In this document: in pieces, positions 20,127 to 34,902 of the stretch | Position numbering within the stretch: the first letter of the stretch is position 1 | Layout: the number at the start of each line of letters is the position of its first letter | Source of the DNA: Coriobacteriia bacterium | GTDB lineage: Bacteria > Actinomycetota > Coriobacteriia > Anaerosomatales > Anaerosomataceae | NCBI GenBank assembly: GCA_016926975.1 | Contig: JAFGNP010000018.1 | Location: 1-35,094, forward strand | DNA length: 35,094 nt | Reading direction: 5' to 3' | Notes under the pieces: generated by a model | The model's input: only the letters and a program-made list of their open reading frames with translations | What the model was told of the DNA's origin: nothing | Database searches by the model: none | Position numbers and translations under genes: made by a program

Positions 20127-21776
20127 TCACTCGCCCCCTCCCGTGAAGCTCGCCCTCCAACGCCGGAGTCCGTCAAGCAGCACGGTGTCATCGACGCCAA
20201 CAGCATGCCACTGCCCCGGAGCCTCGAGCAGCACGAACCTGACAACACCCCCGCGAGACTTCTTGTCGCCTTTCATGGCTCCAAGAATCTCATCCGGACC
20301 TACGCGGTCCAGGAGGGGTCGCACCACCGGTGCGCACATCCGCTCGCCTGCACCGACCGCCTCCAGGATCGACTTCGTTCGTTCGGTGAGATCCGGCGCC
20401 GCTCCGACCAGCGCTTCCGCCAGCAGTGCCGCGAATCGCATGCCTTCGGCAACCGCAAGACCGTGCGGCAACACTCCGTACCCCGCCAGCAGTTCCAGAG
20501 CATGCCCCAGTGTGTGTCCCAGATTGAGGCACTCACGAAGACCCGCTTCACGAAGGTCGTTCGATACCACTTCAGCCTTGAACTCCACAGCATCCTCCAC
20601 TGCACCGAGAACCGCTGCAGACTCTCTGACTACTATTTCAGGAATGTCCCGCTCGAATCGGGCAAGCGCGTCACCACCGGCCAGCAGCGCGGCCTTCGCC
20701 GTCTCCACAAGCCCGTTCGTCCACTCTGCCGCAGGAAGCGACTCCAGCACATCGACGTCAGCGAGCACGAGTCGTGGCGGCCAAAAAGCGCCGGCGAGGT
20801 TCTTGCCCGCGCTCAGATCCACCGCCGTCTTCCCGCCTACCGCGCTGTCTACCTGAGCAAGCAGCGTAGTGGGCAGGTGCACCAGCGAGATCCCCCGCAT
20901 GTAGGCGGCAGCGCAGTAACCGGCGAGATCGCCTACGACTCCTCCGCCGAGAGCGACCACAGCGGAACTGCGGTCGAGACCCGATGCGGCGAACCGCTCC
21001 AGCAGGTCGCCGGCAGTCTCCCAACTCTTGGAGGCCTCCCCTGCCGCGATGCTCTCCTCCACTACGGACACGTCCGCTTCGCGGAGAGACGACGCCACGG
21101 GACCTGCGTAGAGCTCACGGACGGTCTCGTCACTGACGAGTACTGCCGACGAAACATCCAGCACTTCTCGTATCCGCTGACCGGATTCTGCAAGAAGCCC
21201 GTGCCCGATGACGACATCGTACCCACTGTCATCCGACAAACCCCCGACCCGCACGGTTCGTGCGGCGGGAGTCTCCCGGAGGACCCCGATGACCGCTTCA
21301 GCCACGTCGGCTTCGGCGCGCCCGATCGTGTCCACGACATGATCCGCTGTGGCAGCGTATAGAGACATCCGGGTGCCGAGGATGCTCCTAGCGGCAGCCA
21401 GACCGCCATCCGCAAGCAACGGCCGATCGCCGACCTCTCCCACCCTCGCCATCGCCTCCTCCGGCGTCACGGATAGGTAGACTACCGTTCCATGCCTCTT
21501 CAACAGCGCCTGATTGTCGTCCCTGAGGACTACACCACCGCCGGTGGCCACAACAGCAGGGTCGCCACCGACGATCTCCTCGAGCGCAGCATGCTCAGCC
21601 TCCCTGAATCCGTCCTCCCCGCGCGTGCGGAAGATCTCAGGGACCGTCGACCCCTCGCGACGCTCGATCTCCTCATCGAGGTCGACGAATGGTCTACCCA
21701 GCCGTGCAGCCACCAGGCGTCCGACGCTGGACTTCCCGGCACCCATGAAGCCGGTCAGGAAGAGGTGGCTCACCAC
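20127..21776 (-). CDS. aroKB: Bifunctional shikimate kinase / 3-dehydroquinate synthase (AroK-AroB fusion)
   Basis: The 549-residue product joins two shikimate enzymes. Residues 1-165 are shikimate kinase: P-loop GFMGAGKS (9-16), DLDEEIERREG, ATGGGVV and GDRPLL. Residues from about 175 are dehydroquinate synthase: NAD-binding GGGVVGDLAGY (277-287), HLPTTLLAQVDSAVGGKTAVD, CLNLGHTLGHALE with metal His residues, LPHGLAVAEGM and KGDKKSRGG. The two steps are not consecutive (synthase is step 2, kinase step 5). AroK-AroB fusions are known, for example in Thermotoga. The start is one of two adjacent GTG codons (21776 or 21773) overlapping the aroC stop. Confidence 0.95.
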   Translation of the reverse strand: MVSHLFLTGFMGAGKSSVGRLVAARLGRPFVDLDEEIERREGSTVPEIFRTRGEDGFREAEHAALEEIVGGDPAVVATGGGVVLRDDNQALLKRHGTVVYLSVTPEEAMARVGEVGDRPLLADGGLAAARSILGTRMSLYAATADHVVDTIGRAEADVAEAVIGVLRETPAARTVRVGGLSDDSGYDVVIGHGLLAESGQRIREVLDVSSAVLVSDETVRELYAGPVASSLREADVSVVEESIAAGEASKSWETAGDLLERFAASGLDRSSAVVALGGGVVGDLAGYCAAAYMRGISLVHLPTTLLAQVDSAVGGKTAVDLSAGKNLAGAFWPPRLVLADVDVLESLPAAEWTNGLVETAKAALLAGGDALARFERDIPEIVVRESAAVLGAVEDAVEFKAEVVSNDLREAGLRECLNLGHTLGHALELLAGYGVLPHGLAVAEGMRFAALLAEALVGAAPDLTERTKSILEAVGAGERMCAPVVRPLLDRVGPDEILGAMKGDKKSRGGVVRFVLLEAPGQWHAVGVDDTVLLDGLRRWRASFTGGGE

Positions 21777-22918
21777 GCTATCCTCTTGCGGTAAGACTCG
21801 AGCGCACCGAGCATGTCCCCGAGCGGACCGTGGCCGAGAAGATCCTGATATGCGTCCGCCAGCACCAGAGCCACCTCGGCCTCAGCCACTACCGCCGCCG
21901 CGGGGACCGCACACACGTCCGAACGCTCGCGCGCCGCTTCTGCCAGCTCGCCGGTCGAGATGTCTATTGTGGGCAGTGGGCTCATCAGCGTGGGAATCGG
22001 CTTCATCGCAACGCGCACCACCAGGGGCTCGCCGTTCGTCATACCACCTTCGACTCCACCAGCATGATTCGACGCCCGCCGGAGTACACCCGAGCCGTCG
22101 AGAACGATCGCGTCGTGTACCTGCGAACCCAGTCGCTCGGCGCAGGCGAAACCGTCACCGAACTCGACACCCTTCATCGCAGGTATCGACATGAGCGCTC
22201 CCGCCAGACGGCCATCAAGACGCACTCCCGCCTCCGCGTAGCCGCCTAGACCCGGGACGAGCCCCTCAGCGCACACCGCGTACACTCCGCCAAGACTCTC
22301 CCCGCTCGCTCTCGCATCATCTATCGCGCTGCGCATCCGCGAGGCCGCCTCGGCATCAGGGCTGCTCACATCGCTAGCCTGAACCGCTACCATGTCAACC
22401 GCCGAGGGATCCAGGCGACCTGTGGACACGGAGCCGATGGATTCGACCCACGAGCGCACGGTCACTCCAAGCTCCGAGAGCAAGGCCTTGGCGATCGAGC
22501 CTGCCGCCACCCGGGCGGCCGTTTCCCGCGCGCTCGCACGCTCCAGGATGTCACGGACATCTGCAGCTCCAGTACGCTGGATCCCGGGCAGATCCGCATG
22601 CCCGGGTCGAGGCGCGGTCATGCGCTCCACACCCTCGGCACTTCCCCACGGATCCATAGCCTGCGCCCAATTCGCCGAATCACGATTCGCTATCAGCAGA
22701 GCGATCGGGCTGCCTATCGTGCGGCCGAAACGCACACCCGCAACCACGTCGACCGTATCGGATTCAATCTCCATGCGTCCGCCACGCCCGTACCCTTCCT
22801 GCCGGCGTGCCAACTCGCCATCGATGAACGCCCGATCCAGCGGCACGCCAGCCGGGACGTCACTCACCACAGCAACCAGCGTACGTCCATGAGATTCGCC
22901 CGCAGTCGTATAGCGCAA
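21770..22918 (-). CDS. aroC: Chorismate synthase
   Basis: The start is TTG 22918, which gives the family N-terminus RYTTAGESHGRT and has GAAGGAG six bases before it; no ATG fits. The 382-residue protein has the FMN-enzyme signatures GESHG, NRDSANW, RPGHADLPG, RASARETAARVAAG, SNHAGGVEGGMTNG and MKPIPTL. It makes chorismate from EPSP, the last shikimate step. It is the first gene of the long housekeeping run and follows a terminator and a promoter candidate, so it probably opens a new transcript. Confidence 0.96.
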   Translation of the reverse strand: MRYTTAGESHGRTLVAVVSDVPAGVPLDRAFIDGELARRQEGYGRGGRMEIESDTVDVVAGVRFGRTIGSPIALLIANRDSANWAQAMDPWGSAEGVERMTAPRPGHADLPGIQRTGAADVRDILERASARETAARVAAGSIAKALLSELGVTVRSWVESIGSVSTGRLDPSAVDMVAVQASDVSSPDAEAASRMRSAIDDARASGESLGGVYAVCAEGLVPGLGGYAEAGVRLDGRLAGALMSIPAMKGVEFGDGFACAERLGSQVHDAIVLDGSGVLRRASNHAGGVEGGMTNGEPLVVRVAMKPIPTLMSPLPTIDISTGELAEAARERSDVCAVPAAAVVAEAEVALVLADAYQDLLGHGPLGDMLGALESYRKRIAW

Positions 22919-23034: not shown

Positions 23035-24066
23035 CTACTTGGTGATTCCCTGACCGACCGCCAGTGTCACCTGCACGTCTCCATACAGCATCGTGACACT
23101 CGTTGAAGATACGCGCAGAACCTCCCACGGTGTATTGGGAATCCCCTCGCCAGGTGCCAGGGTGTAGGAGACGTTGTTGTAGCGCAGCTGCGCCTTGAGG
23201 ACGCCATCCTCGGTTATAACCCCGTCCAGATAGAGAGTGCCCTCTGTTGTCGGAGTCACCGTGTCGACTGTTGTCGCGGTGGTCGTTGTCGCCGTGACAG
23301 CGGTCGGGTCTGGCAGCGGGAGAAGCAACGGCGCGAAGATGTCCCGGAATATGAACATCTCGGAGTTCGGGACTTCTGCGGCCGGCCCGGCAGCCTCAAC
23401 CGCGGGCGCGGTATCGGAAGTCCCCACGTCCGATTCTTCCGCAGTCTGTTCCTGCAGCTGCCCCTCCAAGTCATCAGTAGCCTGACCGCCGAACACGTAC
23501 AACACGATGGCGACCGCTATGCCAGCGATGATCGCGAGGACACCCAGACCCAAAGTGATGGCGACGATCTTGCCCGTCGGGGTCGCGAAGAAGCCCTGCT
23601 TCCCACCGGATCCTCCGGTTGGCGCAGGCTCGGGTTCGAGCGCAGGCTCGGGTTCGGGTTCGGACGCAGGCTCGGGTTCGAGCTCAGGCGCAGGCTCGGG
23701 TTCGGGCGCAGGTTCGGGCGCAGGCTCGGGTTCGATATCAAGTAGCGGCACGAACGCCGGCGAGGAGTCGAAGTCGGGCGCTGACTCCGGCCCGGCACCA
23801 TACGTAGGCTCGAACTCGGCCTCAGTCTCGGGCTCGAACTCGACTTCCGTCTCAAGCTCGGACTCGACCTCAGTCTCAGGCTCGAACTCGACTTCAGCCT
23901 CGGGAACGGACTCGAAGATCAACCCCGGTTCGGATTCCGGCTCGGGAACAGACATGCTCCCAGGAATCCCTTCCGAATCTCCGATAGGCTCGAAGACGTA
24001 GTCAGACTCGAACTCGGACTCCGTGGACTCCTTCGCATCGTCTGAACCGTAGAACCCGTCGGACAT
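23035..24066 (-). CDS. PilP/GspC-like pilus assembly protein with an acidic Glu-Pro repeat N-terminal domain
   Basis: ATG 24066 has GGAGGTG six bases upstream and gives 343 residues; GTG 24075 is in frame but too close to that site. Residues 1-150 are disordered and extremely acidic, with tandem TEVEFEPE-type repeats (about 58-87) and a Glu-Pro/Ala-Pro repeat (111-149). One membrane helix follows (about 166-193). Next comes a Thr-rich linker (about 255-275) and a beta-rich C-terminal domain (277-343) that resembles the HR domain of PilP/GspC. An FRDIFAPL segment at 240-247 recalls the RDPF-type motif of that family. There is no lipobox. By the positive-inside rule the acidic part is probably cytoplasmic. 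It is the last gene of pilMNO and takes the place of pilP. Confidence 0.65.
   Translation of the reverse strand: MSDGFYGSDDAKESTESEFESDYVFEPIGDSEGIPGSMSVPEPESEPGLIFESVPEAEVEFEPETEVESELETEVEFEPETEAEFEPTYGAGPESAPDFDSSPAFVPLLDIEPEPAPEPAPEPEPAPELEPEPASEPEPEPALEPEPAPTGGSGGKQGFFATPTGKIVAITLGLGVLAIIAGIAVAIVLYVFGGQATDDLEGQLQEQTAEESDVGTSDTAPAVEAAGPAAEVPNSEMFIFRDIFAPLLLPLPDPTAVTATTTTATTVDTVTPTTEGTLYLDGVITEDGVLKAQLRYNNVSYTLAPGEGIPNTPWEVLRVSSTSVTMLYGDVQVTLAVGQGITK
23620..23736 (-). repeat. In-gene tandem repeat coding for a Glu-Pro/Ala-Pro rich segment
   Basis: The plus strand shows many near copies of a 15-base unit, GCAGGCTCGGGTTCG, with shorter GGTTCG-type variants. It encodes Glu-Pro/Ala-Pro-Glu-Pro runs in residues 111-149 of the PilP-like protein. 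Such a tract is prone to length change by slippage or recombination. A second, more diverged repeat (TEVEFEPE type) lies at about 23806-23893. Confidence 0.8.
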
Positions 24067-24091
24067 GATCGTCACCTCCTTCCGTTCAGCA

Positions 24092-24706
24092 TTATGGAGT
24101 GGTCGGTGCGGTCGGCGCGGTCGACATCATGTAGACCTCAAGCATCACGCTAGCCTGGATGTAGGGCTCGACTGCCTCCACACCCTCAGAGGCCTCTATG
24201 CCTGGAACGTAGTTCAACGTGATAGAAGTTATCCTCACACCGCGATCTAGATGCTGGATCCGATAGACGTAGTCGATGATCTCCGTCCAATCGCCCTGTA
24301 TGACCAGCGACAGCTGCAGGATGTTGTAGGCGGGCGGCTCCACCTCACTAGGCGCCTTCCCGGCCATCGGTTCTGCCGGAGTGATCGACTCGAATTCGAC
24401 GCCGGCGGCATTCGCCACGTCCTGCAGTTCGATGATCACAGACGGGAGCTGTGGCGAATCGGGCATCTGGTTTGCGATCCGCATCAGCTCGACCTCGTTC
24501 GACGCAGATTGAGCCTTGGCACTCTGCCTGCGGGACAACAGCGCCTGCGCCTCAGCGAGAGTGGACTGCTCAGCCGCAATGTCCCCGTTCAGACTCGACG
24601 CTTCCTGGAATACCGGGAGAATCACCAGGAAGATGACTGCGATGGCGACGACCGCGATCGCCGCGATAGCGATGTACATCTGCGTCTTGGCGGGCAATCG
24701 GCCCAT
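24092..24706 (-). CDS. pilO: Type IV pilus inner-membrane protein PilO
   Basis: I choose ATG 24706 because GGAGGGTG stands just upstream; ATG 24724 and 24859 are in frame, but the longer version overlaps pilN and is Arg/Ser-rich. The 204-residue protein has a short cytoplasmic start (MGRLPAKTQ), one helix (about 10-32), a coiled coil (about 33-65) and a ferredoxin-like C-terminal domain with ILQLSLVIQGDWTEIIDYVY, typical of PilO. It pairs with PilN to align the pilus machine. The PilO family is divergent, and gene order supports the call. Confidence 0.85.
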   Translation of the reverse strand: MGRLPAKTQMYIAIAAIAVVAIAVIFLVILPVFQEASSLNGDIAAEQSTLAEAQALLSRRQSAKAQSASNEVELMRIANQMPDSPQLPSVIIELQDVANAAGVEFESITPAEPMAGKAPSEVEPPAYNILQLSLVIQGDWTEIIDYVYRIQHLDRGVRITSITLNYVPGIEASEGVEAVEPYIQASVMLEVYMMSTAPTAPTTP

Positions 24707-24788
24707 GGCTAGCACCCTCCGCATCGGGATGCGCGAACTCGGCGGGGCAGGCTCACCCGTCGCGGATGGTTGTCTGTGAGAATACAGC

Positions 24789-25373
24789 TCACGGCGTATC
24801 GCTCCCCGTGGCAGAAACACTCGCAGTGACTGAGAACTGGAGCGCGTCCTGCTCGGCAAAGACGGTCCTCTGGGAAGTCGTCAACCACACGTCGCTCAGC
24901 TGTTCGAGGTCAGCAAGGCGTACAAGCATCTTGGCCATGGACTTGAACCCCAGATCGGGCGAGTCTGCAGGTGCATCGACGGCAAATCCGGACATTGAGA
25001 GGCCGCTGGCCTCTTCCACTGTCATCATCTGAACCCACACGTCAGGAGGAAGAACCAGCGATAGCTCCTGGAAGAGTTTCGACCAGTTCCTGCGCTCGGA
25101 GAAGGCGAGGTCGGCAGTGGCGCGGCGAGCGTCCAGCTCGGCCGCCCGTTCTTCGAAGATCGCCAGTTGTCCCGCCTGCGCGTTAGTCGACTGGACTTCC
25201 TGCTGTACCGATGCCAGCTCGTCCCGCTTTCCCTGGAGTTGGAAGAACCCCAGCGCCCAGACACCCACGAGAAGCACCGCTATACCGATTGCGGCGATAA
25301 TGACCCAACTCATGCGCTTCTCAGCTTTTCGACGCTCGAGAATCTCCGGCGGGAGCAGGTTGATGCGCATCAT
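24789..25373 (-). CDS. pilN: Type IV pilus inner-membrane protein PilN
   Basis: The 194-residue product begins MMRINLLPPEILERRKAEKR, and the INLLPPE motif is the conserved cytoplasmic tail of PilN that docks on PilM. A membrane helix (about 22-44), a coiled coil and a C-terminal ferredoxin-like fold (ELSLVLPPDVWVQMMTVEE) follow. The start overlaps the pilM stop (ATGA), so the two are translationally coupled. It forms a platform with PilO and the PilP-like protein. Confidence 0.93.
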   Translation of the reverse strand: MMRINLLPPEILERRKAEKRMSWVIIAAIGIAVLLVGVWALGFFQLQGKRDELASVQQEVQSTNAQAGQLAIFEERAAELDARRATADLAFSERRNWSKLFQELSLVLPPDVWVQMMTVEEASGLSMSGFAVDAPADSPDLGFKSMAKMLVRLADLEQLSDVWLTTSQRTVFAEQDALQFSVTASVSATGSDTP

Positions 25374-26491
25374 AGCTGCAGCCCTCCGAGCGCAAGCCCG
25401 ATGGCTGTGACGCTGCCCATGCGGTCCGCGCTGACTGCCTGTTCTGCTGAACCGGCGATCTCAAGCCGCTCGAGCGGATCGCCCATGAGCACCTTTGCCT
25501 GGAGCCCCTTCTCGAGATAGGCCGCGAAATTGCGCAGTTGGGATCCGCTCCCGGTGAGCAGGATCTGCTGGATACTGCGCAACTGCGACGTCTGTGTCAG
25601 GTAGTAGTCGAGCGAGCGTCGGATCTCCGCGATGAACTTGTTCACTTCACGTTCCAGCGACTGATGCACGATCAACGCCATGTCGGCGCTCACGCCCGGT
25701 ATGCTGTCAGCTTCGCCGGTCTCGACATCGGGAAGTCCGACCTGGATCTTCAGCTGCTCCGCTTCATCGAAACCCACATTGAGCACGTTGGCGACGGCCT
25801 GGGTGAACGTGCTTCCCGCCAGAGACGAGATGCGGTTGAAGTGGGCTATCCCACGCTCGACGATAGTGATATTGGTCAGCCCGCCCGAGATGTGGACGAT
25901 CGCCGTTGCCTGACCCTCGTCATCGGGCAGGACTGGGCTACCCTCTCCCATCAGTGCCTGAACGATAGCGAACGATGAGACATTGATCTGGTTGAGCTTG
26001 AGACCGGCACCTTCCACAGCTGAGACAGTGTTGCCGATCATCTCTCGGTGAGCCGCCACGAGGAGCACTTCCATCATGTGCTCGTCGCTCGGCGTCATGT
26101 AGTCGCCGATGATCTGGAAGTCCAGAATGGACTCTTCTACAGCCATCGGGATGTAGTCCTGCGCCTGATACTGGATCGCACTCTGAAGTTCCCCGCGCTC
26201 CATGAAAGGAAGGTCTATCAGGCGGACGATGACCCGCTGGTTGGAAACACCGGTGCACACGTCCTTGCCGTGGACCTTGCTGGTGCGCCAGAGTTCCTTG
26301 ATGGCCGAGGACACTGCTTCGGAATCGACTATCCCACCGTCAGCCACGGCACCCATAGGGACATCTACGCGGCCATAACCGATAAGTGCAAAGCCGGACC
26401 CGGTCGACTTGACCTGGGCGACCCTGACAAACTCGGTGCCGATATCCAGCCCTATAGCAGTCTGGCTCGAACCGAATGAGAGGGAACCCAA
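25370..26491 (-). CDS. pilM: Type IV pilus assembly ATPase-fold protein PilM
   Basis: This 373-residue FtsA/actin-like cytoplasmic protein starts at TTG 26491, decided by AAGGAGGACACCG just upstream. Features are the phosphate-binding TAIGLDIGTEFVRVAQV, the SHS2-type insertion FQIIGDYMTP, AIVHISGGLTNITIVERG for the second phosphate loop, and LLTGSGSQLRNFAAYLEKGL near the end. It binds nucleotide and the PilN tail and couples the motor to the membrane complex. A perfect TTGACA lies about 155 bases upstream, so pilMNOP may have its own promoter. Confidence 0.95.
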   Translation of the reverse strand: MGSLSFGSSQTAIGLDIGTEFVRVAQVKSTGSGFALIGYGRVDVPMGAVADGGIVDSEAVSSAIKELWRTSKVHGKDVCTGVSNQRVIVRLIDLPFMERGELQSAIQYQAQDYIPMAVEESILDFQIIGDYMTPSDEHMMEVLLVAAHREMIGNTVSAVEGAGLKLNQINVSSFAIVQALMGEGSPVLPDDEGQATAIVHISGGLTNITIVERGIAHFNRISSLAGSTFTQAVANVLNVGFDEAEQLKIQVGLPDVETGEADSIPGVSADMALIVHQSLEREVNKFIAEIRRSLDYYLTQTSQLRSIQQILLTGSGSQLRNFAAYLEKGLQAKVLMGDPLERLEIAGSAEQAVSADRMGSVTAIGLALGGLQL

Positions 26492-26685: not shown

Positions 26686-28239
26686 TCACTGATGCCGGCT
26701 CCACAGCCCGAGCGTGATGATGCCTTCCCCGCCTCCGGGAAGCGAATCGGGGAGATACGTGGGCAGCAAAGGGTTGGTCACAAGGTCGGTGTTCGGGTCG
26801 GCAAAGTCCATCTTGTTGGAGAGTACCGACCCCCGCAGAGAGGTGCCGGGGTGAGTGATGTAAATCGTACCGTCAGTGTAGTAGGCCCCCGCATAGTCGA
26901 ACGCCTGGTCGCGAATGGGTTCGAAGCCGTTGTTCGATCCTGAAGCGTGCATGGTGATCGATGACGGGGTGACTATGCCGAGTGCCCACTTGTTGTCTTC
27001 TCCCACCTTGTTGACGACCACTGAGTCCTCCGAGTAGCTGTACGGACGCAGGGCCCCGGTGAGTGTTACGGGTCCGTTGGCCACTATAGTGCCGTTGCCT
27101 ATGTACATGACGTGATCGTCGATCACGAGCGGACCGTCCACGAACACCGTCCCGCTGATGTACAACAGATCCCAGTGCTCCCCGCCATGCAGCGGCGTGA
27201 AGCTCGGGTTGTCCCAGTACGCGAAGTCATCGTAGACACCGTTGTATGTAGCCCCGTCGTACAACAGCGTCTGTCCACCCGCGGGGATAACCTGGCCGGT
27301 CGTGATGACCGAACCCCACGAACCGAAGGAACCCGCGCCTGCCGTACCGAGATGCAGGGTGGTCGATCCCTGCCCCATCGGATTGATCGTGCTCGTGGTC
27401 TCCCCGTAGAACTTGTACGTGCTATCGCCCCGGCTCTCGACCTCCCGGTTCGCAGTGGCTGTGTCCGGATTCGTAAGCCTGCTCATCTTGTCGTCGCGTG
27501 ACTGCGCCTGAGCGACAAGGGCATACGCGCGCATATCGTCATAGGTCAACCCCGGAAGCTCGATCGTAGGAACCGAGAAGAAGGGGCCGTCCACGTACAC
27601 GTTGCCCTTGTCGAGATCCACATCACCATCACAGTAGAGCCGCACATGCTTATCCTGTGTCCCGATATCCGAAGCGGCGGAGGTGGTCACGATGTTTCCG
27701 CCCTTGACGAACAGGGGGCCCTCCATGATCGACATGTTGGCCTCGACCGCCAGGTTGCCCTTGATGTAGAAGGGTCCCCAGATGTTCGACGACCCGTTCA
27801 TCCCGCTGGAACCACTCATCAGTGACTGAGAGCCCGTCCCTGCGAAGTTCATCTCCCACAGGTTGATGTAGAAGAAGCGCTGCACGACGGTCTCGGTACT
27901 CCCGTCGATTCCGACACCCCTGGAAACGATCTCGTACTCTCCCGCATCGCCGCCGGTGGACTCGAGTGTTATCGTCGCGGTGCCGTCCGGAGTGACAACC
28001 GGGTCGTAGCTCGTCACACCTGCCTCAAACGTGGCAAGTACGCTGTCGATGCCCGCACTGGCGACTCGAAACGCCCGGCTCTCGTCCTCCGCTCTGTCGG
28101 CATCGAAAAGGGCCTGCTTGGCGAGTACGAACGAGCCGATGGCCAGGACCGTCACAACTGTCATGACGCCAAGAACGGTGATCATCGCGATACCGTCTTC
28201 GGACGATGCCGGGGCCCTGTGTCGCTTCATCGAGAACAT
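26686..28239 (-). CDS. PilX-like minor pilin with a large surface domain
   Basis: The 517-residue protein has the N-terminal pattern of PilX-type minor pilins: EDG then IAMITVLGVMTVVTVLAIGSF, a single hydrophobic helix at about 15-38 without the Glu at mature position 5, as in PilX/GspK proteins. An ATG at 28239 with GGAGGCG upstream is preferred; an ATG three codons later is possible. Residues from about 130 are rich in Gly, Ser, Asn and short beta repeats (GPFYIKGNLAVEANMSIMEG, GPLFVKGG, DGDVDLDKGNVYVDG), which suggests a beta-helix or beta-solenoid. This is much longer than typical PilX (about 160-200). It likely caps the pilus as part of a minor-pilin tip complex. Confidence 0.7.
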   Translation of the reverse strand: MFSMKRHRAPASSEDGIAMITVLGVMTVVTVLAIGSFVLAKQALFDADRAEDESRAFRVASAGIDSVLATFEAGVTSYDPVVTPDGTATITLESTGGDAGEYEIVSRGVGIDGSTETVVQRFFYINLWEMNFAGTGSQSLMSGSSGMNGSSNIWGPFYIKGNLAVEANMSIMEGPLFVKGGNIVTTSAASDIGTQDKHVRLYCDGDVDLDKGNVYVDGPFFSVPTIELPGLTYDDMRAYALVAQAQSRDDKMSRLTNPDTATANREVESRGDSTYKFYGETTSTINPMGQGSTTLHLGTAGAGSFGSWGSVITTGQVIPAGGQTLLYDGATYNGVYDDFAYWDNPSFTPLHGGEHWDLLYISGTVFVDGPLVIDDHVMYIGNGTIVANGPVTLTGALRPYSYSEDSVVVNKVGEDNKWALGIVTPSSITMHASGSNNGFEPIRDQAFDYAGAYYTDGTIYITHPGTSLRGSVLSNKMDFADPNTDLVTNPLLPTYLPDSLPGGGEGIITLGLWSRHQ

Positions 28240-30496: not shown

Positions 30497-31336
30497 TCAG
30501 CCGAGTCCTATCAGGCCCAGGTACCACGCCAGCATCGACGGTCCCGCCAGGGCGGACAACACTCCTCCCGCCGCCAGCCAGGGTCCGAACGGGATCTTCT
30601 TCTCCGCCAGAGAAGTCCCCCGTGCGGAGAGAAGCCCCACTACCACACCTATCATGCTGCCGACCACGAGCGCCACTAGCACGTAGGGGCCCAGATACAG
30701 ACCGAGCGCCCCGAGCAGCTTCACATCACCGGCCCCGAGGCCCTGCCTGCCGCGAAGCGCTCCGTACGCAGCGGCAACCGCACCGGAGAGCCCCGATCCT
30801 ATCAGCGCTCCGGCGAGCGATGCCGCCAGCGGCTGAGAGAGCAGTCCTATTGCGGCGACACGGTGAAGCGGCAGAAGATCCGCCCCGCCCAGTTGTGCCA
30901 CCATAGCGCCTGCAATCCCAAGGACAGCCATTGCGCCCACGATCGGGTTCGGGAGACGCATGTGATCTAGGTCGATCACCGCAAGAACCAGAAGAAACCA
31001 GAAGAAGGCACCTGCGAAGACCGCCTGAAGTGTAACGCCCCATCCGAGCGCAGCCGCAAGGAACAGCACGCCTGACGCGGACTCCACCAGAGGATACCGG
31101 CGGGCTATCGGATCGCCGCAAGAACGGCACCTGCCGCCGAGCGCCAGCCACGAGACTACCGGGATGTTGTCGTACCAGGCGATCGCTGCGTCGCAGCCCG
31201 GGCAGTGCGAACCCGGCCTTACGATGGACTCACCCCGGGGTACACGCCATATCACGACATTGGCGAAGCTGCCGAAGAGCAGTCCCAGGACGCTCATGCA
31301 CACCGCGAAGTACCACACAGGGAAGTACACCGGCAT
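30497..31336 (-). CDS. pilD: Prepilin peptidase PilD (leader peptidase and methyltransferase)
   Basis: This 279-residue polytopic membrane enzyme has the N-terminal GSFANVVIWRVPRG segment. It has the zinc/methylase motif with CPGC and CRSC pairs (about residues 45-74), and the two catalytic aspartates of type IV prepilin peptidases: VIDLDHMRLPN in one helix loop and GLGAGDVKLLG in another. It cleaves the leaders of PilA and the minor prepilins and methylates their new N-termini. It follows pilA after a hairpin terminator, so it probably has lower expression than pilA or its own promoter. Confidence 0.96.
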   Translation of the reverse strand: MPVYFPVWYFAVCMSVLGLLFGSFANVVIWRVPRGESIVRPGSHCPGCDAAIAWYDNIPVVSWLALGGRCRSCGDPIARRYPLVESASGVLFLAAALGWGVTLQAVFAGAFFWFLLVLAVIDLDHMRLPNPIVGAMAVLGIAGAMVAQLGGADLLPLHRVAAIGLLSQPLAASLAGALIGSGLSGAVAAAYGALRGRQGLGAGDVKLLGALGLYLGPYVLVALVVGSMIGVVVGLLSARGTSLAEKKIPFGPWLAAGGVLSALAGPSMLAWYLGLIGLG

Positions 31337-31470: not shown

Positions 31471-31839
31471 CTACTCGTCGTAGTTGTGCGTGGCGTCTAC
31501 CGTGCAGTGGAAATCCCCGTCAGTGACGGTGTACTGCGTTGTGTCCGTGGCGGCCGGGCACGTGGTCGAGCCAGACCAATCCTTCACGTACGTGCCAATC
31601 GCTGCCTCAGCCAGGGTGATAGTGTCCAGCGAGGTCTTGTCATTCGTGGGATCAGCGGCGATCCACTGCTCCACAGCTCCGTCGAGCACTCGGAGGTTGT
31701 TCTGGCAGGCGCTCCTACGCGCAGAGGCCTGAGCCGCGTTGAAGACAGGAATAGCAATAGCAACAAGAATACCGATAATCAGAACTACGACCATGAGTTC
31801 GACGAGGGTGAAGCCCTCATCCTTCCTGAACATCCGCAT
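31471..31839 (-). CDS. pilA: Major type IV pilin (PilA-like)
   Basis: This 122-residue prepilin starts at ATG 31839 behind an excellent AAGGAGGTG. The leader is nine residues (MRMFRKDEG). The mature protein begins FTLVELMVVVLIIGILVAIA, the archetypal type IV pilin helix with Phe1 and Glu5. The globular part is about 85 residues, with cysteines at 45, 94 and 112; the last two could form a C-terminal disulfide loop. It is short, like Gram-positive and Geobacter-type pilins. It is flanked by its own promoter-like and terminator-like elements, which fits a highly expressed fibre subunit. Confidence 0.93.
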   Translation of the reverse strand: MRMFRKDEGFTLVELMVVVLIIGILVAIAIPVFNAAQASARRSACQNNLRVLDGAVEQWIAADPTNDKTSLDTITLAEAAIGTYVKDWSGSTTCPAATDTTQYTVTDGDFHCTVDATHNYDE

Positions 31840-31942: not shown

Positions 31943-33157
31943 TCACTTGATGAGCGTGATTGACTGGAACATCGGCATGTACAGCGCGACGACCATGCCA
32001 CCGACGATCACGCCGAGCACGGCCATCATGAGCGGCTCGATGATCGATGTCAGAGCATCCACCGCCATGCTGACTTCTTCGTCGTAGAAGTCGGCGATCT
32101 TGGAGAGCATCTGGTCGAGCGCACCTGTCTCCTCGCCTACCGCAACCATCTGAACGACCATCGACGGGAACACCGGTGATTCTCCAAGCGGTTTCGCGAT
32201 AGTCTCACCCTCCTTGATGGCAGCGCGAGTGTTCTTGAGGGCCTTGGCCACAACCGCGTTCCCGGCGGTGTCAGAGACTATGTCGAGCGCGGAGAGGATG
32301 GGGACTCCGGCGCCGACGAGCGTGCTGAAAGTCCTGGTGAAACGAGCTATGGCCGTCTTGCGAACCAGCGGACCGACGATCGGCATGCGAAGTAGGATCC
32401 CATCCCACGTAAAACGACCCGACTCCGTTCCCACCCAGAACTTGAAGAGCACGGTGCCTGCCACGATGACACCAACGAAGACGAGACCGGGCCAGCTTGT
32501 GGCCCCATCGGAGATCGATACCAGTATCTGCGTAGGCAGAGGCAACTCCCCGCCCATATCGGAGAACATCTTCTCGAACGTGGGCACCACGAAGATCATC
32601 ATCGCGACAAGAATCACCAGCACGAGCCCCAGCATCGCGATCGGATAGGTCATCGCCGACTTGATGCGGCCCCGCAGGTTGGCGTCAGCCTCAAAGAGGT
32701 CGGCCACGCGCAGGAGCACTTCGTCCAGCACACCACCGGTTTCCCCGGCCCGCACCATGTTGTAGAAGATCGGAGGGAAGATCTTGGTGTGCTTCATCAT
32801 CCCCTCGGAAAGCGACTGCCCCGCCTCCACGTCCTTACCCAGCTGGTTGATGATGTCGCGCAGCTCCTTGCTCTCCGACTGAGCACCGAGGATCGCCAGG
32901 CACTTCGTTAGGGACAAGCCGGCGTTGATCATCGTTGCAAACTGGCGCGCGAAGATGGTGACGTCCTTCGTCTTGACGCTCGTGCCGAACTGGATCTTGC
33001 TGAGTCTCGCAAGACGATCCTCCTCCAGATCCAGAACGATGTAGCCCATCTGCCGCAGCTTGTTGGCAACAGCCTCGCGGTTCTCGCCTTCCAGCTTTCC
33101 GCCGACGACCTTACCGGTCTTGTCGCGGACGCTGTACTTGAAGGTAATCGTCGCCAT
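31943..33157 (-). CDS. pilC: Type IV pilus inner-membrane platform protein PilC
   Basis: This 404-residue GspF-family protein begins ATITFKYSVRDKTGKVVGGK, as is usual, and has two repeated cytoplasmic GspF domains. The first contains FARQFATMINAGLSLTKCL and FYNMVRAGETGGVLDEVL; the second contains FTRTFSTLVGAGVPILSAL and MVAVGEETGALDQML. Membrane helices lie at about 170-195, 220-245 and 375-400. PilC is rotated by the PilB motor to add pilins. It follows pilB after 74 bases and ends about 100 bases before pilA. Confidence 0.97.
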   Translation of the reverse strand: MATITFKYSVRDKTGKVVGGKLEGENREAVANKLRQMGYIVLDLEEDRLARLSKIQFGTSVKTKDVTIFARQFATMINAGLSLTKCLAILGAQSESKELRDIINQLGKDVEAGQSLSEGMMKHTKIFPPIFYNMVRAGETGGVLDEVLLRVADLFEADANLRGRIKSAMTYPIAMLGLVLVILVAMMIFVVPTFEKMFSDMGGELPLPTQILVSISDGATSWPGLVFVGVIVAGTVLFKFWVGTESGRFTWDGILLRMPIVGPLVRKTAIARFTRTFSTLVGAGVPILSALDIVSDTAGNAVVAKALKNTRAAIKEGETIAKPLGESPVFPSMVVQMVAVGEETGALDQMLSKIADFYDEEVSMAVDALTSIIEPLMMAVLGVIVGGMVVALYMPMFQSITLIK

Positions 33158-33231: not shown

Positions 33232-34902
33232 CTACACGATCACCCGGACGATCTCCTCGAGTGACGTCTGACCCATCCGAGCTTTCTCGAGCCCGTCCAT
33301 CTTGAGAGTGAGCATCCCCTGTTCGATGGCCGTGTCCCTTATCGCCTCGGCTGTAGCCTCCCTCACGCACAACTCGCCGATCTCCTCGGAGACCATCATC
33401 ACTTCGTGCACGCCCATGCGCCCGCGATAGCCGGTCCCGCCGCACTTCTTGCATCCCTTTACGCGCCAGAGCTTCTCAGGAAGATCGTCTTCCCGGTAAC
33501 CGGCATCAAGGAGCACTTGCCTCTCCGGCACGTACTCCTCCTTGCAGTCCGAGCAAAGGCGCCGGGCGAGACGTTGAGCCAGCACACAGTCGACCGACGA
33601 AGCCACAAGGAACGGTTCGACGCCCATCTCGGTCAGCCTGGTGATGGCACCTGCGGCATCGTTGGTGTGGAGGGTGGAAAGGACCAGGTGGCCGGTCAGG
33701 GCCGATTCGATCGCGATCTTGGCCGTTTCCTGGTCGCGGATCTCACCGACAAGGATGATGTCGGGCGAGCAGCGAAGGAAGGATCGCAGCGCACGGGCGA
33801 AAGTCAGGCCAGCCTTCGTGTTCGTCTGAATCTGGTTGACGCCGGCAAGCCGGTACTCGACCGGATCCTCGGCTGTGAGGATGTGCTTGCCGGGGTCGTT
33901 CAACACGTTGATGGCCGCGTACAGCGTGGTGGACTTGCCGGAACCGGTAGGCCCGGTCACCAGGATGGCGCCGTACGGCTTGCGGAAAGACGACTCGAAA
34001 CGCTCCAACGCCTCCGGCAGGAAGCCCAGGTCCTCCAGGCGCATCATGATGCTGTCCTTGCGCAGGATTCGGAGCACAACGCGCTCACCGTACACGGTCG
34101 GCAGCGTGGAGACGCGGAAGTCCATCTTGTGCCCGCCGATGGTCAGGGCGCTGTGACCGTCTTGCGGCTTCCTGGTCTCGGCTATGTCCATGTCCGCCAT
34201 GATTTTGAACCGCGAGATTATCGCTTGTTGCGTGCCCTTTGGGCTCCGCATCATCTCGTGGAGAACACCGTCCACGCGGTAGCGAACGCGCAGGTCTTTC
34301 TCTTGCGGCTCGATGTGGATGTCGCTTGCCCTGTCGGCTACCGCCTTGTTGATGATGTAGTTCACGAGCTTGACGATCGGCGCCTCATCAGTGACCTCGG
34401 TAAGATCCTCCAGCGAGACGGTCTCGAGCTCGTCTCCCGAATCCATGCGCTCGTCAGTCATCGTAGTGGCCATCTTGTAGTACTCCTCGACCGCGCTGAC
34501 GATGTCGTCCTTGGTCGAGATGGCCGGCCTGATCTCGTAGCCTGTGATGATGCGCAGGTCGTCCAGGGCAAGCACATTCTGCGGATCGGCCATCGCTACC
34601 ACGAGCTGGTCTTCCGCTATCTCGACCGGCATCAGCGTGTAGCGTGTGGCGAGATCCTTCGGCACGACAGCGATCGCGTTGGCATCCGGTGTCGTCTGAG
34701 AGAAGTCGATGTAGGGAATGCCGATCTGTTTGGCCATCACCGAGAGGATGCCGCCCTGGGTGGCGTAACCCATATCGACCAGCACTCGCCCGAGAGGACT
34801 TCCGGTGGCCTTGTGCACCTCGAGCGCATCGGTGAGCTGCTGCTCGGTTATGATTCCGGCGCGCATGAGCAGAACGCCGAGTCGCTCGCCCGCCTCTGCC
34901 AC
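33232..34902 (-). CDS. pilB: Type IV pilus extension ATPase PilB
   Basis: This 556-residue hexameric motor starts at GTG 34902; the GGAG upstream is ten bases off, so the start is only fairly sure. The N-terminal MshEN-type domain reads RLGVLLMRAGIITEQQLTDA (7-26) then GSPLGRVLVDMGY. In other PilB/MshE proteins this motif binds cyclic di-GMP. The ATPase core has SDIHIEP (193-199), Walker A GPTGSGKST (317-325), TAEDPVEY, Walker B ILVGEIRD (383-390) and HTNDA (412-416). Zinc cysteines are 450, 453, 484 and 487. No retraction ATPase PilT is in the window. Confidence 0.97.
   Translation of the reverse strand: MAEAGERLGVLLMRAGIITEQQLTDALEVHKATGSPLGRVLVDMGYATQGGILSVMAKQIGIPYIDFSQTTPDANAIAVVPKDLATRYTLMPVEIAEDQLVVAMADPQNVLALDDLRIITGYEIRPAISTKDDIVSAVEEYYKMATTMTDERMDSGDELETVSLEDLTEVTDEAPIVKLVNYIINKAVADRASDIHIEPQEKDLRVRYRVDGVLHEMMRSPKGTQQAIISRFKIMADMDIAETRKPQDGHSALTIGGHKMDFRVSTLPTVYGERVVLRILRKDSIMMRLEDLGFLPEALERFESSFRKPYGAILVTGPTGSGKSTTLYAAINVLNDPGKHILTAEDPVEYRLAGVNQIQTNTKAGLTFARALRSFLRCSPDIILVGEIRDQETAKIAIESALTGHLVLSTLHTNDAAGAITRLTEMGVEPFLVASSVDCVLAQRLARRLCSDCKEEYVPERQVLLDAGYREDDLPEKLWRVKGCKKCGGTGYRGRMGVHEVMMVSEEIGELCVREATAEAIRDTAIEQGMLTLKMDGLEKARMGQTSLEEIVRVIV

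Follow-up and report, generated by a model that had tools for sequence, protein, structure and literature searches.

Classical PilP is a lipoprotein that links PilN and PilO to the PilQ secretin, and its importance is seen mainly in docking the pilus machine at an outer-membrane pore. In P. aeruginosa, the unstructured N-terminal region of PilP binds PilNO (PMC5805733). Whether PilP has a role besides connecting PilN/PilO with the secretin is a matter of dispute. A set of eight meningococcal proteins that includes PilP is enough for pilus assembly in a non-piliated host (PMC10191384), and two reviews hold that Gram-positive type IV pili lack PilP and take this as an argument that it does not act directly in assembly (PMC4471445, PMC6916266). 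Type IVa pili in Actinobacteria and the repeated loss of secretins in monoderms have already been reported, with a search model that keeps pilP as an accessory gene (PMC6668835). Here we analysed a stretch of 35094 nucleotides from a Coriobacteriia bacterium, apparently a one-membrane cell (assembly GCA_016926975.1, contig JAFGNP010000018.1), hereafter referred to as the window, which belongs to a 1.65-Mb draft genome in 142 contigs (completeness, 93.7%; contamination, 6.45%).

Pilus gene cluster and layout of the PilP-like protein

The window carries a type IVa pilus cluster on the minus strand, composed of pilB, pilC, a pilin gene, pilD, pilin-like genes, pilM, pilN, pilO, the pilP-like gene, and aroC. 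The extension ATPase PilB (33232–34902; PF00437, PF05157) has an MshEN domain and matches the c-di-GMP-binding family NF053729 (57.5 bits; cut-off, 38), so that control of pilus extension by c-di-GMP is possible. The platform protein PilC (31943–33157; PF00482), a pilin-like protein (31471–31839; TIGR02532, 30.5 bits; cut-off, 16.3), and the prepilin peptidase PilD (30497–31336; PF06750, PF01478) are followed by pilM (25370–26491; TIGR01175, 214.8 bits; cut-off, 133), pilN (24789–25373; PF05137, 26.8 bits; cut-off, 22.8), and pilO (24092–24859, taken from the first start, the true one being probably further in; PF04350, 38 bits; cut-off, 22). Directly downstream of the pilP-like gene lies aroC (21770–22918), recognised by eye from its translation and as a conserved neighbour. 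The gene between pilO and aroC occupies the pilP slot, in which the sequence-only reading had placed it, as judged from profile matches to pilM, pilN, and pilO. PilT is encoded outside the window, elsewhere in the genome.

Some other features of the genome are recorded here. Between the pilin-like genes and pilM lies a gene for a possibly PilX-like protein (26686–28239; 517 residues) that has a hydrophobic helix at its N-terminus and no clear Pfam match, and shikimate kinase and 3-dehydroquinate synthase are apparently fused in one ORF (20127–21776, by eye). A second PilB-like ATPase frame and secretion-ATPase matches occur in other contigs (C112, 2720–3460; C41, 11698–12168; C124, 2396–2821), so that a second pilus-type system may exist.

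The coding sequence of the PilP-like protein (23035–24066, minus strand, stop codon included) starts at ATG 24066, with a Shine-Dalgarno sequence, AGGAGGTGA, upstream at 24080–24072, and ends with the stop codon at 23037–23035, giving 343 residues and agreeing with the location first proposed. GTG 24075, the mechanical start of the ORF, was discarded because it overlaps the Shine-Dalgarno sequence. From the N-terminus, the protein consists of an acidic arm (residues 1–154), the juxtamembrane segment KQGFFATPTGK with the predicted membrane helix (residues 155–201; 23464–23604), a conserved linker motif FIFRDIFAPL (residues 238–247; 23326–23355), and an HR domain of the PilP/GspC-like type (residues 276–343; 23038–23241). 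AlphaFold2 places a helix at residues 163–201 and seven strand elements at residues 277–342, with pLDDT of 94–97 across residues 281–340, and the C-terminal 114 residues folded separately gave identical strands. The single-pass anchor supposed from the sequence is thus borne out by one predicted helix, which contains no lipobox. The helix starts with lysines, acidic residues come after it, and relatives have lipobox-like N-termini; from these features we infer that the HR domain is outside and the arm cytoplasmic.

Gene order and distribution in Actinomycetota

The nearest named relatives of the pilM gene are in Actinomycetota assemblies, many of them Coriobacteriia, with one of the nearest from Anaerosomatales. 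Rows for a profile of the PilP-like protein (A1, 37 rows) were obtained from 36 of 50 loci of pilM relatives; the missing loci lie outside the phylum (L044–L050), are on cut contigs, or were missed by the motif, and L016, L018, L033, and L038 were retrieved later by profile. The 37-row profile matched 63 of the 69 sampled genomes of the own order. Outside the order it gave 31 of its 94 matches, of which 29 were dropped as covering just the membrane-helix half of the profile; the two retained, in family f17, cover the HR region. Of 396 phylum genomes sampled, 113 gave a match to the HR profile (A2, 59 rows) at E ≤ 0.01; this count retains 12 matches weaker than E 1e-5, that of genome G472 included, and the locus was read for a part of the 113 genomes. 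The unique rows number 117, one of them the PilP of the diderm contig L045, so that the Actinomycetota family has 116.

Where loci were found via the HR protein and have room upstream, pilO adjoins the pilP-like gene in 69/71; the two failures are L087 and L148 (the latter the one row among the 117 without a membrane helix in the chosen frame), in which an over-long start was chosen that overlaps pilO. The total of 109/111 adds to these L045 and the 39/39 loci found via pilM, which are not an independent test. Forty phylum loci, twenty selected because their open frames are long and twenty to cover different families, have a pilO match beside the pilP-like gene in every case (40/40) and a pilM match in 38, the contigs of the other two beginning in or just ahead of pilO. 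On the other side, aroC follows in 82 of the 88 loci with room, pilM-found loci included (34/38 for those from the phylum search). The diderm contig L045 runs pilM, pilN, pilO, pilP, and then ends, and the deltaproteobacterial contig L044 has pilM, pilN, a split pilO, pilP (PF04351), a secretin gene (PF00263), and aroB. Because pilP, secretin, and aroB follow one another in L044, the simplest reading of the Actinomycetota cluster is the diderm order minus pilQ, which looks to have been excised.

Three loci have irregularities of their own. The pilO slot of L044 (11560–12270) is split between two frames, by a sequencing error or in a broken gene. One ORF in L091 (4437–5801) begins as AroC and runs on into a sequence identical to the second half of the PilP-like gene next to it, through duplication or misassembly. 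The Patescibacteria locus L048 encodes, after pilM and two pilN/pilO-like genes and before pilB-/pilT-like genes, a 145-residue protein (2039–2476) that by eye has a membrane helix and RPNPFRPIGF without an HR domain, and that is perhaps a PilP reduced to the linker motif.

Acidic N-terminal arm

The arm (23605–24066) contains 40 Glu, 8 Asp, 29 Pro, and 1 Lys, with a net charge of −47, and is predicted to be disordered (pLDDT, ~42–53; 61–72 in the X-Pro block). It had been described as about 150 residues of acidic Glu-Pro repeats, which goes a little too far; the acidity extends over residues 1–154, and the X-Pro/Glu-Pro repeats are confined to residues 112–149 (23620–23733; Tandem Repeats Finder arrays, 23622–23735), themselves with interruptions, the remaining arm being Glu-rich. 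Four copies of an ETEVEFEP-like 8-residue unit, the first at residue 56, form a 24-bp tandem repeat (23806–23915; score, 136), and a 42-bp array lies at 23623–23718 (score, 150), every period found within the arm being a multiple of three. The matches of the arm to the Trypan_PARP, DedD, and SslE models lie far under the cut-off and were set aside as due to low complexity.

The arm, known from this one draft assembly, is not a trait of the protein type. It is absent from 4/4 congeners and from the other order members recovered by profile, so that within the order it is confined to the window genome. In the order set, 58 of 64 unique rows have clear starts; in these the helix is preceded by a median of 36 residues, and 55 of the 58 have a negative distal tail. 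Among all 117 unique rows, with the first start used, a tail charge of −10 or below was found in three, namely the window protein, L088 (f17), and L158 (f92); L087, a relative of L088, has −13 across 55 residues from its likely start. The long tails of L009 (65 residues) and L038 (70 residues) were discarded as artefacts of upstream starts. Among the relatives, acidic arms thus occur in f17 and f92, and none in the congeners and other recovered order members; since twenty of the forty phylum loci were chosen for long frames, the share of armed or lipobox-like members is not that of a random sample. The arms of the window protein, f17, and f92 show no similarity by eye, which suggests separate origins, and mapping the four armed rows onto the tree of PilM takes at least three changes, one gain and two losses being also possible.

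The arm could lack any separate function and be the product of neutral repeat expansion, specific to this lineage, in a disordered tail that tolerates such growth; we consider this only a little less probable than its opposite. Such an expansion agrees with the rarity of strongly charged tails, with the armless congeners and other recovered order members, and with the in-frame 24- and 42-bp arrays. It also agrees with the copies of the 8-residue repeat, which differ at codon positions 1, 2, and 3 in 3, 9, and 10 of 48 comparisons, respectively; with no marked excess at the third position, these codons show no sign of strong protein-level selection on the repeat. However, a charge of −47 in 154 residues, with an intact frame, is much for a tail under drift. 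Acidic arms of unlike sequence in f17 and f92, the number of changes needed on the tree, and the prevailing acidity of the short tails also speak against mere drift.

A contact of the arm with PilB or PilM, as suggested in the sequence-only reading, finds no support. PilB (−20), PilM (−19), and PilT (−10, open frame) are all net acidic, so that attraction by charge is unlikely, and with PilC also negative (−1) no basic partner stands out.

HR domain and relation to PilP

Structure comparison of the predicted C-terminal domain (VIA) gave HR domains of GspC, PilP, and GspB in the top 11 rows (Z-score, 9.4 to 5.0), headed by the GspC HR domain 3oss_C (Z-score, 9.4; rmsd, 1.9 over 62 aligned residues) and including PilP 2ivw (Z-score, 8.4), and the next, unrelated row has a Z-score of 4.7. 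A limit of this comparison is that scores under 8 may reflect a common arrangement, 8.0 or more being reached in 4 of the 11 HR rows. In Foldseek, ranks 1–13 are HR families of GspC, PilP, and GspB (best E, 5.1e-3), with no match of the domain at E ≤ 0.001. The PilP/GspC-like HR fold proposed from the sequence is thus the one predicted, and the best-ranked matches include no unrelated fold.

Sequence profiles gave matches of varying strength. Among 54 phylum members, TIGR03021 (pilP_fam) leads the NCBIfam matches with 27 at E ≤ 1 (best, 5e-8), and Pfam PilP matches eight (E ≤ 1; best, 8.3e-4). The HR profile A2 recovers the classical PilP of L045 (E, 1.1e-4), which Pfam PilP scores at 65.7 bits. 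In hhalign, A2 aligns with two diderm PilPs (E, 4.8e-5; probability, 68), and the alignment of the phylum profile A4 with them is weak (E, 0.0023; probability, 12.6). Matches of sequence profiles to GspC and PilP in the PDB are non-significant (E, 0.37, 0.13, and 1.2). For the window protein itself, TIGR03021 gives 13 bits (E, 0.16) against a curated cut-off of 34.65, the Pfam scan returned no PF04351 row, and PilP does not appear among the 25 of 38 Pfam families listed for the 37 rows of A1. A linker of the DPF/NPF type before the HR domain is typical of PilP. The window protein has FRDIFAPL at this position, the phylum consensus is RDPFxPL, and the diderm PilPs of L044 and L045 have IDPF and INPFEP. 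Lipobox-like N-termini were found by pattern in 3 of the 116 unique Actinomycetota members (L169, L173, and L180, of three families); a match in L018 was discarded because it falls inside the membrane helix. Taken together, the predicted fold and the gene order make the PilP reading well supported; strict membership of PilP is not claimed, since the window protein lacks a lipobox and scores under the curated cut-offs.

It is unlikely that the protein is instead a GspC/GspB-type secretion component recruited into the pilus cluster. A membrane helix followed by an HR domain is the layout of GspC and GspB, the top structural match is a GspC domain, and Pfam T2SSB matches 9 of the 54 phylum members (best E, 0.005). 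On the other hand, the gene follows pilO in nearly all of the loci found through the protein itself, lipobox-like forms occur in three families, the pilP_fam matches contrast with 5/54 for GspC_delta (NCBIfam), and none of the 149 class genomes searched has a secretin match, as described in the following section.

Secretin and outer-membrane markers

The sequence-only reading had noted the lack of pilQ in the window, and the search for a secretin elsewhere agrees with it: the secretin domain PF00263 was found neither in the own genome (93.7% complete draft) nor in any of 149 class genomes, the own included, with a model that detects 6 of 14 controls. In the phylum, 5 of 396 genomes gave a match to PF00263; two of them (G472 and G573) belong to the 113 that are HR-positive, which leaves 111 of these without it. 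Six secretin loci (2.1–3.5 kb each, short stretches with little context) contain no match to pilM, pilN, pilO, or HR. One genome of family f29 (G598) has a secretin match and no HR match, through contamination or a change of the envelope; in many others of this family the HR protein is present and a secretin absent, and the f29 member L180 looks like a lipoprotein.

With the textbook partner missing from the genome and the sampled class, the protein might be viewed as a decaying PilP relic, left without a present role after the loss of the outer membrane and pilQ; the GspD N0 and STN models, which detect just 2 and 4 of 14 controls, respectively, also match none of 41 relatives. We regard decay as very improbable, because strong conservation marks the HR domain and the linker (F244, G329, and G338 invariant in the 59 rows of A2; R241, W314, and D330 kept in 57) and the A1 profile matches the own family in 27 of 27 genomes sampled, that of the window included. 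That a secretin or another N0-bearing ring is present and was missed, through gaps in the draft, the ability of very divergent secretins to escape profile searches, or the low sensitivity of the N0 and STN models, is less credible still in view of the consistent zeros for the secretin domain in the class, for N0 and STN in the relatives, and, at class level, for Omp85 (0/119 genomes; model detecting 7 of 14 controls).

Proposed function

We consider it likely that the protein is a PilP, divergent and anchored by a membrane helix, that belongs to a type IVa pilus machine with no secretin; in this machine the linker would stabilise PilN/PilO and the arm would tether partners. The basis in sequence and prediction consists of the HR-like fold, the pilMNO–gene–aroC order across the phylum, the single N-terminal helix, the RDPF/RDIF-xPL linker, and the lack of a secretin match in the genome and the sampled class. 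The linker would dock on the PilN–PilO heterodimer, like the unstructured part of classical PilP, and thereby stabilise PilN/PilO around the platform protein, the membrane helix taking the place of the lipid anchor. The HR domain, released from PilQ, may cap the PilNO ring or contact the cell wall or another component; the PilNO-binding half of the job of PilP would thus continue without PilQ. The arm may be a disordered extension on the cytoplasmic side, built up through in-frame tandem repeats on the short and mostly acidic tail that relatives have; if functional, its most probable role is to tether or crowd partners in the cytoplasm close to the machine, as the acidic region of HubP/FimV does, the core function being independent of it.

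More tentatively, and with the odds somewhat against it, PilP may have an ancestral, secretin-independent role in assembly, for which it was kept when pilQ was lost, and three lineages, probably independently, grew acidic hub arms. Linker and HR domain would then keep the PilN–PilO ring intact or fix it in the cell wall, PilP having been mostly re-anchored by a membrane helix in Actinomycetota, and the arm would recruit motor or positioning factors, converting a periplasmic linker into a two-sided hub.

What is new is the retention of a PilP after secretin loss, in some hundred genomes or more (111/113, 12 of the HR matches being weak). This secretin-less PilP is the finding of interest, and the arm is a striking but local addition. 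The Actinomycetota family has probably been overlooked, because its members fall mostly under the PilP models. We take IPR007446 to be the InterPro entry for the Pfam PilP model. One of the two reviews relied on IPR007446 in its survey (PMC4471445). Our literature search, mostly of titles and with subscription journals outside its scope, found no title on PilP in Actinomycetota. A secretin-less PilP offers a direct test of the assembly role of PilP.

Comparison with known systems

The likeness to HubP/FimV concerns the arm only and is one of working: both have an acidic disordered region that is cytoplasmic, on the window side by the proposed topology. HubP repeats vary in length and number among close relatives (PMC12918733). 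The window arm precedes the membrane helix, the opposite order to that in HubP/FimV, and the protein has no LysM or FimV/TPR match (Pfam, E ≤ 1). With GspC of type II secretion, the protein shares a layout in which one membrane helix at the N-terminus leads to an HR domain, to which 3oss_C is the best structural match; it differs in that the HR domain is its C-terminal end and that it is encoded in a pilus cluster without a secretin, no type II secretion context with the secretin GspD having been found for the gene. The scaffold GspB/OutB likewise combines a membrane helix with an HR domain, as predicted here, and GspB variants with an extra cytoplasmic domain are known (PMC9239104). OutB binds N0 of the secretin through its HR domain and is attached to peptidoglycan by a C-terminal extension (PMC9239104), whereas the window protein stops at the HR domain and no secretin was found. 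From PilP (PF04351/TIGR03021), the window protein differs in its membrane helix in place of a lipid anchor, its scores under the curated cut-offs, its cytoplasmic acidic arm, and a cluster in which no secretin partner was found. With PilP it shares the C-terminal HR β-domain, the RDPFxP-type linker that precedes it, the position of the gene right after pilMNO, and the aro genes beside the cluster.
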